Virus record (IMG/VR): IMGVR_UViG_3300030104_003310
Span: 1 to 25,291 of that record
DNA from: a virus
Length of the DNA: 25,291 bases
Strand: one strand, 5' to 3'
In this document: piece after piece, positions 10,727 to 22,185 of the stretch
Layout of the letters: each line of letters begins with the position of its first letter
Numbering within the stretch: the stretch's first letter is position 1
Notes under the pieces: model-generated
The model's database searches: none
What the model was told of the DNA's origin: nothing
Seen by the model: only the letters and a program-made list of their open reading frames with translations
Made by a program: the position numbers and the translations under genes

Positions 10727-11865
10727 TGGCAGTTACAAGCGTAAAGATTTTACATAACGGATGGACGGCATCCGAAACGATCGGGAGCGGGATAACGTTC
10801 AACGTGGTTTACCAGGTTGAAGTAGATGACCGGAACGATGGCCCGCTGATTGTTTTAAACGCCGACGATGGAACTAACAGAATTCCGATTCCTGGCGAGT
10901 CCTATAATATAGGCAATGAGCAAGACGCATTTGCTTTCGTAAAATCAGTTAATCCAACTCCTGTGGCAGAACTTGTTTGGAATGTTAGCGTAACATTTGG
11001 ACCGAGAGAACCAGGAGACAGTAAAGACGGGCCAGACGGTCAAGAGCCGAAAGGCTTAGATTCCAATGGGCAGCCGACAGATGACCCGCTTAAAGAAACG
11101 GCAATTATTAGAGTTTCTACGGTTAACACTCGTAGAGCGGCGTTAAGGGGAGCATATTTGGGACAAGGTACCGAATATCTAGACGGAAAATTTGAATTTG
11201 ACCAAATTGGGATAGCCGGCTCGAAGCCGCCTATTCCTAACCCTTGGAATACAACCTGGGATTTTTTAGGAGGCATCGAAGACACAACCCCTTTGACAAA
11301 TTCAGTATTCACCCCGTTTGAGCCGCCACCGGAAATGGACTATTCTCGAATTCGAGTTAGTATTAGTATGAATTTGAAATTCAACGACTGGTGGCATCCG
11401 ACATTCTGGCTGCGTTACGTTAATTTGGTGAATACTCATGAAATTACTTTTCTTTCACAGTTCCCCGGTATTTTGCAAGAAGTAGCGTACGCTAAACCAT
11501 TCTGTTGTAGAGTTATGGCGGTTAGCGTTAGCCCAAAAATCAAAAATGGAAAGATGTTTTGGGCCGTAGACGTAGAGCTGTTGATAGATAATTTGTTTAG
11601 TTGGCGGCTTGATATACTAGATAGAGGCTACTGCGAAACCAGCAATAAAATGGTCAGCGAAGGCGCTCCAGCTAAAAATAATATAGTAGACGGGCAAGGG
11701 CTACCACTTGCTGAGCCGGTTCTTTTGGATGGACACGGAAACCAGCTAGACCTTGAACAAGCTAACGCTGTTTATTTGCGTTACGGAGTGTACCCAGAGA
11801 TAAATTTCAACACTTGGTGGGGAATCCAAAACCCTCAAGACTTACAAGATAAGATGAACAACTAA
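10726..11865 (+). CDS. Probable tail-tip/baseplate protein
   Basis: 379 residues, TAATG overlaps at both ends. No family is recognised with certainty. The N-terminal 90 residues look like a beta-sandwich (INVVYQ-like strands, FVKSVNPTPVAELVWNVSVT). A Gly/Asp/Pro-rich linker (about 90-120) follows, then a second beta-rich part with many Trp (NDWWHPTFWLRYVNLVN, FSWRLDILDRGYCE). Position directly after the tape measure implies distal tail or initiator hub function. An 'LDRGY' box near the C-terminus recurs in tail proteins of other phages by memory, but this is only suggestive. Confidence 0.6.
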   Translation: MAVTSVKILHNGWTASETIGSGITFNVVYQVEVDDRNDGPLIVLNADDGTNRIPIPGESYNIGNEQDAFAFVKSVNPTPVAELVWNVSVTFGPREPGDSKDGPDGQEPKGLDSNGQPTDDPLKETAIIRVSTVNTRRAALRGAYLGQGTEYLDGKFEFDQIGIAGSKPPIPNPWNTTWDFLGGIEDTTPLTNSVFTPFEPPPEMDYSRIRVSISMNLKFNDWWHPTFWLRYVNLVNTHEITFLSQFPGILQEVAYAKPFCCRVMAVSVSPKIKNGKMFWAVDVELLIDNLFSWRLDILDRGYCETSNKMVSEGAPAKNNIVDGQGLPLAEPVLLDGHGNQLDLEQANAVYLRYGVYPEINFNTWWGIQNPQDLQDKMNN

Positions 11866-12680
11866 TGACAAATATAATTTGGACTAACGGAAATAGTGAC
11901 GGAGACTGGGCAAATACAGCCAACTGGCTCGGCGGTGCAATTCCGACAGCCGGTGACAACGTGTATTTTACAAGCGAATACACCGGCGACGTTACAACGA
12001 ATCTAGATAGAACCGCCGACGGTACGCTCGGCAATTTAATTATTGAGGAAGGCTACACCGGCAAGATTGGAACTAAAGCCGGTTATCTGCAATTGATATG
12101 TAGCGGGGTAACGTTTGATGGATCGGGCCTATGCTTTATCGACGTTAACACCTCGGCAATAGATATAACGGTTACAGGCACCGCTAGAGCGTCCACAGGG
12201 CAGCAAGGCTTATACTTGAAGGGATCAGCTATAGACGAATTAAACGTAACCGGTGGAACCGTAGGCATAGCAGCCAGATCAGGAGAAACTGCAACCGTAG
12301 CCACGATTAACTTAAACGGTGGAACTGTAAACGCTGGAGCAGGTGCAACACTTACAACGCTCACAGGCTACGGCGGTAACATGAATAGTAAAGCCGGACT
12401 AACTACCGTCAATCTAATCGGCGGCAATGCAAAAGTAGAGGGCAACATTACAACTGCTAACCTGGAAGCCGGCACGCTAACCTATAACGGGACCGGAACA
12501 ATTACAACCTGTAACGCGCAAGGCGGAACAATTGATTGTTTTAGAACGGCACTAGCTCGAACTATTACAACGCTAAATTTGAAGCCTAACGGCGGTATTG
12601 TCTACGATCCTGACGTGGTAACTGTCAGCACATTAACAAGCAACGGCAACCCTATTAATATAAGTTCAAGCAATGCCTAG
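11865..12680 (+). CDS. Beta-helix-like tail fibre/adhesin
   Basis: 271 residues, rich in T, G, N, A and almost free of charged clusters. It opens with an adhesin-type motif GDWANTANWLGGAIPTAGDN (about residues 13-32), which resembles the G-x-W...NW...P..gD repeat at the start of autotransporter passenger strands. After that come short repeating strands with NLNGGTV, NVTGGTV and NLIGGNA rungs, typical of a right-handed parallel beta-helix. It is likely a receptor-binding or virion side-fibre protein. It overlaps the previous stop (TAATG) and the next gene by 8 nt. Confidence 0.6.
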   Translation: MTNIIWTNGNSDGDWANTANWLGGAIPTAGDNVYFTSEYTGDVTTNLDRTADGTLGNLIIEEGYTGKIGTKAGYLQLICSGVTFDGSGLCFIDVNTSAIDITVTGTARASTGQQGLYLKGSAIDELNVTGGTVGIAARSGETATVATINLNGGTVNAGAGATLTTLTGYGGNMNSKAGLTTVNLIGGNAKVEGNITTANLEAGTLTYNGTGTITTCNAQGGTIDCFRTALARTITTLNLKPNGGIVYDPDVVTVSTLTSNGNPINISSSNA

Positions 12681-20494: not shown

Positions 20495-21364
20495 ATGTTA
20501 AAAGTGGGAGAACTATTCGCTGGTATAGGCGGCATTGGTCTAGGTTTGGAGATGACCGGAGGCTTTGAGGTTAAGTGGCAAGTTGAGCGTGACGAATACG
20601 CCTCTAAAGTATTGGCGAAGCATTGGCCAGAAGTTCAGCGCTTTAATGACGTGCGAACTTTTCCACCCGGCGACAACAATGATTATTACGTCGATTTAAT
20701 AGCAGGCGGGTTTCCTTGTCAGGACATAAGCGTAGCCGGTAAGGGTGAAGGATTAAAAGGTGAACGAAGTGGCCTATTTTACGAAATTGTGCGAATTGCG
20801 GAAAGACTCAGACCAAGATACCTACTCTTGGAAAACGTCTCAGCTCTCCTTGTTCGGGGGTTTGGAGACGTTCTCAGAGAGCTGGCCGAGATCGGGTATG
20901 ACGCGGAGTGGCATTGCATACCGGCTGCCGCCGTTGGTGCGCCTCACAGACGTGATCGGGTCTTCATCATTGGGTACGCCAACAGCGACCATGAGAGTAC
21001 GGTCGGAGAAGTTCAGGAAGGGAAGATTACCGAATCCAGCGGAAGCCGTACAGCCGATGCGGTGGCCGACACCGATCGCGACGGACGGCCGCAAGACGTT
21101 CATACCGACCCCGACGGCGTCAGCCGGCAAGGGAGCGGCGTCGAGTCGTTTCTTGGGATCGAAGAACTACAGGGGCAACTTGAGCGAATACGTTCGGACG
21201 TCGGCCGACGACAGTGGGAAATTGAACCCGACGTGGGTCGAGTGGCTGATGGGTTTCCCGGTCGGGTGGACCAACTTAGATGTTTAGGCAATGCGGTAGT
21301 ACCGCAGGTTGCACAGTTCATAGGGGAAATGATATTGAGGGCTGAGCAATGCAAGGATACGTAA
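20495..21364 (+). CDS. dcm: C5-cytosine DNA methyltransferase (Dcm-type)
   Basis: 289 residues, ending with a C5-methyltransferase order of motifs: I FAGIGG (8-13), IV GGFPCQDIS with catalytic Cys75, VI ENV (113-115), VIII GAPHRRDRVFI (148-158), then a target-recognition region of about 100 residues, and IX-X RVADGFPGRVDQLRCLGNAVVP (broken: RVADGFPGRVD, LGNAVVP about 264-270). It makes 5-methylcytosine, probably to shield phage DNA from host restriction. It is on the short side for the family. No restriction nuclease gene lies nearby. AAGGGG precedes ATG 20495. From 20760 to 21287 a second gene reads the same DNA in the +1 frame. Confidence 0.92.
   Translation: MLKVGELFAGIGGIGLGLEMTGGFEVKWQVERDEYASKVLAKHWPEVQRFNDVRTFPPGDNNDYYVDLIAGGFPCQDISVAGKGEGLKGERSGLFYEIVRIAERLRPRYLLLENVSALLVRGFGDVLRELAEIGYDAEWHCIPAAAVGAPHRRDRVFIIGYANSDHESTVGEVQEGKITESSGSRTADAVADTDRDGRPQDVHTDPDGVSRQGSGVESFLGIEELQGQLERIRSDVGRRQWEIEPDVGRVADGFPGRVDQLRCLGNAVVPQVAQFIGEMILRAEQCKDT
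20760..21287 (+). CDS. Overprinted gene nested in dcm (conserved phage protein)
   Basis: 175 residues, fully inside dcm in the +1 frame. GTG 20760 has GAAGGA 6-11 nt upstream. The sequence shows features I recognise from proteins next to or within phage methyltransferase genes: SWKTSQLSLFGGLETFSESW, PRSGMTRSGIAYRLPPLV, several WPTP / PTPTAS repeats, and an end LNPTWVEWLMGFPVGWTNLD. At the same bases dcm encodes its conserved motifs VIII-X, so both frames carry family-like sequence. The function is unknown; pairing with dcm suggests a role in methylation or its control. A chance frame would not be expected to show this ordered, family-like motif set. Confidence 0.75.
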   Translation: MNEVAYFTKLCELRKDSDQDTYSWKTSQLSLFGGLETFSESWPRSGMTRSGIAYRLPPLVRLTDVIGSSSLGTPTATMRVRSEKFRKGRLPNPAEAVQPMRWPTPIATDGRKTFIPTPTASAGKGAASSRFLGSKNYRGNLSEYVRTSADDSGKLNPTWVEWLMGFPVGWTNLDV

Positions 21365-22185
21365 AGATTCACCGGAGGATTCTAGAATCAGAAGTATTTG
21401 AAGACCCGAGGCTATTTAAAACGTGGATGTGGATTCTATGCAAAGCAAACTTTAAGCCGGTTGTTTTGAACAACGGAACAGCACTAAAAACGGGCCAATT
21501 TGCTATGTCGTACGGCCGGGCTGCAAGGCATTTAGACTGCAGTGTAAACACGGTCAGGCGGCATTTTAAGCGATTAAAAGCCATGCAAATGATTGACACG
21601 CAGAGCGGCGCGCAGTTTACCGTTGTAAGTATCTGCAATTACAGGACTTACCAACACAGTGATGGAAATGGCGGCGCGCCGACGGATACGCAAACGGATA
21701 CGCAAACGGATACGGACACGGATACGCAGACGGATACGGAGACGGCACACAGAAGAAGAAATATAAGAAAACAAAAAAATAATAATAAGGGGATTGGTTT
21801 TTTTTCGGGGATGGAACCAGCCAGACAAGCACAACTTGAAAAGTGGTATCAGTACCGTCAGCAGATGGGTGGCTACACACAACAGCAGCTAGAGGAATTT
21901 GCTAAAACCGTGCAACATCTGGATTCTAAACAGCTAGAATTAAAAGTGAGCCGTGCAATCGCTAATGGCTGGAAGTCTCTAGTGCACATGGACGTTGAGC
22001 CAGTGCCTAAAGCAGCTCCGGCAAAACGTACAACCCAAGCCGATGTTATGGCTGGCGAGATATACAGCATAGAGCAGAAGATCAGCAAACTGAAAAAACA
22101 CGGTGATCCTGAAACTATAAACAGCCTGGAATCCAAACTGAAGGAGTTGAAAAGTGCTCAGAGCAAAATACATCAAACAGGGTGA
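21349..22185 (+). CDS. Replication initiator / replisome organiser
   Basis: 278 residues. The N-terminal 100 residues are a winged helix of the phage replication-protein type: YVKIHRRILESEVFEDPRLF, KTWMWILCKANF, and ARHLDCSVNTVRRHFKRLKA as recognition part. A T/D/Q repeat (about 112-131) follows, encoded by 12-bp iterons, then a basic stretch HRRRNIRKQKNNN. The C-terminal half is helical (QQLEEFAKTVQHLDSKQLEL), likely to load helicase. As in lambda O, the DNA origin would lie inside its own gene. It overlaps dcm by 16 nt. Confidence 0.75.
   Translation: MQGYVKIHRRILESEVFEDPRLFKTWMWILCKANFKPVVLNNGTALKTGQFAMSYGRAARHLDCSVNTVRRHFKRLKAMQMIDTQSGAQFTVVSICNYRTYQHSDGNGGAPTDTQTDTQTDTDTDTQTDTETAHRRRNIRKQKNNNKGIGFFSGMEPARQAQLEKWYQYRQQMGGYTQQQLEEFAKTVQHLDSKQLELKVSRAIANGWKSLVHMDVEPVPKAAPAKRTTQADVMAGEIYSIEQKISKLKKHGDPETINSLESKLKELKSAQSKIHQTG
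21682..21741 (+). repeat. Five 12-bp iterons (probable origin)
   Basis: Units start at 21682, 21694, 21706, 21718 and 21730. The first nine bases are ACGGATACG in all five; the last three vary (CAA, CAA, GAC, CAG, GAG). A partial ACGG follows. Units are contiguous, near one helical turn each. They are in frame and encode T-D-T-[QDE]. Confidence 0.75.
21746..21807 (+). other. A/T-rich probable unwinding region
   Basis: Directly after the iterons, the top strand is A-rich (GAAGAAGAAATATAAG, then A7 and ATAATAATAA) and ends with a run of eight T's at 21800-21807. This is the layout of a duplex-unwinding element beside initiator-binding repeats. Confidence 0.55.

Follow-up and report, generated by a model that had tools for sequence, protein, structure and literature searches.

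A reading frame overprinted on a phage dcm gene probably encodes the second subunit of a C5-cytosine DNA methyltransferase

Introduction

The dcm gene of a viral DNA window (the whole stretch analysed, 25,291 nucleotides of IMG/VR record IMGVR_UViG_3300030104_003310) carries a second, conserved coding sequence in its +1 frame. This overprinting is a correct observation and not the product of chance. Very probably, the product of dcm (frame A) and that of the overprinted gene (frame B) are the two subunits of one C5-cytosine DNA methyltransferase, written in different frames of one stretch of DNA, a reading that does not yet rest on expression, binding or activity data.

In such an enzyme, A would supply the large domain, which binds SAM and catalyses the reaction, with motifs I–VIII and X; this role is assigned to A because the roles of these motifs are established. 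B, inferred to be translated from its own ribosome site inside dcm, would supply motif IX and probably also the variable region with its WPTP repeats. Motif IX belongs to the small domain, which faces the major groove of the DNA (PMC3404938). B would complete this small, DNA-facing domain in trans, and it would add an N-terminal module (SWxTSQ..SGMxRNGxAYxLP) of unknown role. Since A lacks motif IX and B has it, the two are most likely subunits of one enzyme, and A alone or B alone would be expected to be incomplete. The binding of A to B, the methylation activity of the pair and the assignment of target recognition to one or the other chain are inferences only.

An annotation that lists only one of the frames therefore misses one subunit of an apparent two-subunit enzyme, and the annotated dcm, cloned alone, should be inactive. 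Furthermore, the family is a rare and well-replicated case of deep dual coding, extending over more than 500 bases and found at more than 200 loci before removal of duplicates. Natural returns to a single frame make it suitable for tests of how overlapping genes originate, persist and are resolved.

The dcm locus of the window

The features of the locus, most of them read directly from the sequence, are as follows.

20495–21364, + strand: frame A, dcm, alpha-like subunit of 289 aa, with motifs I–VIII and X and without motif IX
20714–20722, + strand: dcm motif IV PCQ (catalytic cysteine), upstream of the overlap
20747–20752, + strand: GAAGGA, Shine-Dalgarno-like, 7 nt upstream of the GTG at 20760
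20760–21287, + strand: frame B (+1 of dcm), beta-like subunit of 175 aa, entirely nested within dcm
20880–20900, + strand: SWPRSGM motif of B, belonging to its N-terminal module, which overlies dcm motifs VI–VIII
20936–20965, + strand: dcm motif VIII GAPHRRDRVF
20973–20987, + strand: B GTPTA, first of three PTP units
21063–21074, + strand: B WPTP unit; the same bases give VADTD in dcm
21102–21119, + strand: B IPTPTA unit
21222–21272, + strand: B motif IX LNPTWVEWLMGFPVGWT, assigned by profile comparison with single-ORF methyltransferases
21239–21289, + strand: dcm reads RVADGFPGRVDQLRCLG where B has its motif IX and stop
21284–21307, + strand: dcm motif X LGNAVVPQ, opening with TTA GGC, within which the B stop TAG (21285–21287) falls

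The B ORF has 175 codons, from the GTG start at 20760 to the TAG stop, and overlaps dcm residues 89–264, that is, from past motif IV, through motif VIII and the variable region, to the first codons of motif X. A preliminary description of this DNA had placed dcm motifs VIII–X under B. Motif VIII is indeed there, in an overlap that starts earlier, after motif IV, but motif IX lies in B itself and motif X is not overlapped beyond its first codons. The B motifs quoted in that description are found where it had located them, and the GAAGGA before the GTG is also present.

Frame A matches Pfam PF00145 (DNA_methylase, E 4.9e-50), with residues 3–181 aligned to positions 2–180 only of the 324 in the profile, as well as PHROG 363 (E 1e-77); among PDB sequences, residues 4–164 match M.HhaI. 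With motifs IV (PCQ), VI (ENV), VIII and X present and in order, A qualifies as a C5-cytosine methyltransferase. It does not meet the requirement of a motif IX and a small domain within its own chain, as the Pfam match ends at 180 of 324 and motif IX is read in the +1 frame: the dcm site where the canonical motif IX is expected is occupied by the motif IX of the other frame. Frame B matches PHROG 1008, 'DNA methyltransferase' (E 3e-26), over its residues 10–111, a label that is silent on members lying over dcm in another frame. No match for frame B was found in Pfam, NCBIfam or the PDB sequences. An alignment of 83 B sequences gives the consensus FSxTWPRSGMMRNGxAYxLPPL in the SWPRSGM region, and the consensus of the WPTP unit in B homologues is WPTPxAxDxK.

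Two other ORFs of the window contain repeats. The one that follows dcm (21349–22185) has a tandem repeat at 21680–21745 around ACGGATACG, read as TDTQTDTD in the protein, and an ORF at 11865–12680, downstream of probable tail genes, has a repetitive Gly-/Thr-rich pattern.

Conservation of the +1 frame

The longest open run in the +1 frame of dcm in the window is 176 codons; when the gene is shuffled 100 times among synonymous codons, it averages 61 and never exceeds 121. When 80 dcm relatives were retrieved with the A protein alone, without the use of B, the +1 frame proved open in all 80, at about twice the length seen in synonymous shuffles. With the window included (81 genes), the median +1 open run is 230 codons versus 102 after shuffling, and that of the +2 frame is 48. 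The pattern LNPxWVEWLMGFP is readable in the +1 frame of 80% of the relatives in this A-only set. Searching with B yielded 80 more loci, many of them on contigs already in the A-only set. Nearly all B-profile domains (226 of 230) lie in the +1 frame of a dcm; the remaining four belong to three actinophages, where the PTP/motif IX segment has left its place over the dcm segment. The spacing between motif IX (+1 frame) and motif X (frame 0) is fixed at 26 nt in 212 of 236 pairs, from a redundant set of loci.

It could be imagined that the +1 ORF is merely the shadow of a conserved, stop-poor dcm. Such a shadow exists and is not small: part of the similarity among B sequences stems from it, and shuffled dcm genes still score about 114 bits against a B profile made from half of the homologues. 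However, the median of the real +1 frames in 67 homologues is 293 bits, versus 114 for the shuffled ones, and in every one of the 67 the real sequence outscores each of its ten shuffles. For the window, the +1 frame of dcm reaches 264 bits, its shuffles 107 on average and 118 at most.

Canonical dcm genes, which read motif IX in frame with the rest of the protein, served as controls; they came from ten bacterial genomes that also contain dcm genes of the overlap type, and from E. coli, plasmids and viral contigs. None of the 14 scored has a +1 excess (p 0.05 to 1.0). Among the dcm genes of the ten genomes whose Pfam match stops at about position 165, the 7 scored do have one (p 0 to 0.04), and motif IX is readable in the +1 frame of most of them. 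Where B has motif IX, A is therefore without it. A search for M.EcoHK31I itself led to two Escherichia plasmid dcm genes (L266 and L267), both of other types and lacking a nested B. The synonymous shuffles, these controls and the third-base conservation described below rule out a chance or shadow ORF, and the dN/dS of B also speaks against it.

Selection on both frames

Synonymous constraint was estimated from third-base agreement between codons that share a four-fold degenerate amino acid, the expectation being 0.27 throughout. The third-base identity of dcm is 0.30 in residues 1–75, 0.61 in residues 110–170, 0.93 in residues 225–262 and 0.32 in residues 266–289; it is 0.93 at LNPTWVEWLMGFP and 0.93–0.96 over motif IX of B. 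For dN/dS, 23 independent pairs, all of the overlap form, were used, and two values were obtained, depending on which changes were held fixed. B has a dN/dS of 0.49 (95% interval 0.36–0.59) or 0.32 (0.24–0.40), and the same statistic in the non-overlapping part is 0.84 or 0.73. B is thus under purifying selection, with a dN/dS of about 0.3–0.5. The dN/dS of dcm rises from 0.15 outside the overlap to a relaxed 0.57 within it.

The preliminary description had proposed a conserved second protein, widespread among phages, and these data bear it out: the +1 frame recurs, open, across dcm homologues, and profile scores and synonymous constraint agree. Stops scattered through the +1 frame of homologues, or a lack of reduced synonymous variation in the overlap, would have refuted it, and neither was encountered; the comparison of dN/dS in both frames, which it had put forward as a check, points in the same direction.

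With positions fixed, a Shine-Dalgarno match of at least 6 nt precedes a B-frame start in 43% of the 67 homologues; shuffles reach 13% and the +2 frame, used as control, 1%. This is relevant to the possibility that B has no start of its own and that ribosomes shift from A into the +1 frame, giving an A–B fusion with motifs I–VIII and IX. Frameshifting would likewise require the +1 frame to be open downstream, but we regard it as very improbable, given the excess of Shine-Dalgarno sites at B-frame starts. The synonymous freeze, moreover, begins at dcm residues 101–120, over motifs VI–VIII and upstream of any shift that would keep motif VIII in A, and the resulting fusion would be without motif X. 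Separate translation of two subunits remains the preferred reading.

Motif IX and the architecture of B

The preliminary description regarded B as a protein of unknown function. As to its kind, the function is no longer unknown, since B contains the C5-methyltransferase motif IX that is missing from dcm, and the arrangement has a studied counterpart in M.EcoHK31I. The LNPxWVEWLMGFP segment is assigned to motif IX on the basis of its position in single-ORF relatives, because the direct comparison of B with canonical enzymes is statistically weak. Profile comparison equates the B segment with the stretch that directly precedes motif X in single-ORF methyltransferases (probability 97%), whereas the direct comparison of the B and canonical dcm profiles aligns LMGFPVGW to IQQFPDDW with an E of 0.04 and a probability of 1%. 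Structural modelling adds little: AlphaFold gives a low-confidence model for B alone (mean pLDDT 59), with no usable fold, the variable region is also unresolved in the model of a single-ORF relative (L318), and a match of the single-ORF model to M.HhaI covers only about 163 columns and is uninformative on motif IX.

WPTPxAxDxK units occur at 20973–21119 in the window and in most B homologues, in numbers varying from one to several. They could be target-recognition modules, for which there are no test data. In B of Bacillota (L209, L222, L233, L237 and L257), the same PTP repeats and motif IX are accompanied by a different N-terminal module, QLTLFPADSPASRS..GSEEARRMTVTSG..FLTWKxSAT..LFRLVPSMP.

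Comparison with known methyltransferases

The two polypeptides of M.EcoHK31I have 309 and 176 aa, and the gene for the smaller one lies within that for the larger in another frame. In the window, the corresponding polypeptides have 289 and 175 aa, and the smaller is likewise nested in the larger in another frame. The motif split is also the same: in M.EcoHK31I (YGGCCR, Escherichia coli), the larger polypeptide contains motifs I–VIII and X and the smaller only motif IX (PMC3404938). According to the title of the 1995 paper by Lee, Kam and Shaw, which PMC3404938 cites, in vitro methylation requires two proteins. There are also differences. The target-recognition domain of M.EcoHK31I is predicted in the larger polypeptide (PMC3404938), whereas the frame that the single-ORF relatives of the window have kept beside motif IX is B-like. 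M.EcoHK31I is part of a restriction-modification system, whereas an unsystematic look at the ORFs of the window recognised no restriction enzyme.

M.AquI (CYCGRG) is an alpha/beta C5-methyltransferase whose smaller subunit carries motif IX as well as motif X (PMC3404938). It resembles the window pair in consisting of two polypeptides split in the variable region, but the window does not meet this type of split, since motif X is in frame A. An M.AquI-like arrangement, with motifs IX and X in the smaller protein, is found in KBurrousTX gp80, Heather gp36 and Peaches gp76. Canonical monomeric C5-methyltransferases (M.HhaI, E. coli Dcm, PF00145) share motifs I–VIII and X with A but differ in that their single chain also includes motif IX and the small domain, and in having no conserved +1 frame.

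The kind of arrangement is thus already known from M.EcoHK31I, of which the window is a further case, homology to M.EcoHK31I itself being unestablished. What is new is how broad the family is, how often annotation omits it, and that B has an N-terminal module whose constraint outlasts the move of motif IX. No description of the breadth of the nested family was found in the literature searched.

Fusion, splitting and evolution of the overlap

In some actinophages the two frames have given way to other forms. In Estave1, Babsiella, DotProduct, PFR1 and xhp1, motifs I–VIII continue in frame into the PTP repeats, then motif IX and motif X, and the Pfam domain of PFR1 then matches to position 312 of 324, nearly the whole length. 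In KBurrousTX, Peaches, Heather and Eesa, the segment and motif X form a separate second gene. PHROG 1008 also matches the PTP–IX–X segment of these single-ORF and split proteins.

A tree of the I–VIII part, with 91 rows besides a canonical outgroup of 12, was built by a quick method; some branches are long. The single-ORF and split actinophage forms make up one group of 15 rows (98%) nested inside the overlap clade. L154 had appeared as a single ORF, and L084 and L197 as unsure; these were artefacts of the motif pattern, and the sequences read as overlap. Because the single-ORF and split forms nest inside overlapping rows, the overlap is likeliest the ancestral state of the clade, to the extent that such a tree can tell.

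In this actinophage group the synonymous freeze at motif IX is gone (1.55–1.64 times expectation, versus 3.5 in overlap forms). The freeze at residues 121–140, over the SETWPxSGM of B, persists at 2.76 times expectation, with a background of about 1.5, and in Babsiella a short +1 ORF, gp55, is annotated at this residual freeze. That the N-terminal freeze outlasts the move of motif IX indicates that B has two parts.

The persistence of this constraint after motif IX has moved to A, and the lack of a recognised homologue of known function for the N-terminal module, would also suit a B that is a separate protein overprinted on dcm with a job other than methylation, such as regulation or the countering of restriction. 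Such a role seems improbable, as B was never found away from a dcm in the searches made with it, its C-terminal segment joins the dcm chain itself in actinophages, between motifs VIII and X, and motif IX is missing from A where B has it. We therefore retain the two-subunit enzyme. It also appears reasonably likely that the overlap, far from being peculiar to one E. coli strain, is ancestral to a dcm clade spread across phages and many bacterial phyla, and that B is bipartite, consisting of motif IX and of an N-terminal module overprinted on motifs VI–VIII even after motif IX moved. If so, few other long overlapping gene pairs on the same strand would be as widespread in prokaryotes.

Distribution and annotation

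The overlap family is large and extends across phages and about eleven bacterial phyla. Contigs with overlap loci are labelled Pseudomonadota, Actinomycetota, Bacillota, Bacteroidota, Planctomycetota and Myxococcota, and further Elusimicrobiota, Acidobacteriota, Chlorobiota, Calditrichota and Verrucomicrobiota. Many of these labels come from metagenome bins, so some may be phage contigs. The window query gave no match in E. coli genomes; four prophage relatives were found there via an Acinetobacter phage.

In the records examined, usually only A is annotated, less often only B. Partial precedents are the 'g62 internal gene' of Lily and gp55 of Babsiella. RefSeq names only dcm in both E. coli records examined. 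In the prophage of E. coli PT62 (L334, 1100–1960), where dcm alone is annotated, the ATG of B lies about 4 nt after the annotated dcm start and opens a frame of 251 codons, so that nearly the whole gene is dual-coded. In that of E. coli PCP07014 (L333, 1200–1961), the annotated dcm is a pseudogene, and both frames are broken at about the same place. The dcm of Gordonia phage Ailee (L260, 318–2192) is annotated as two joined pieces with an HNH endonuclease gene between them, a layout that suggests an intron or a similar insertion.
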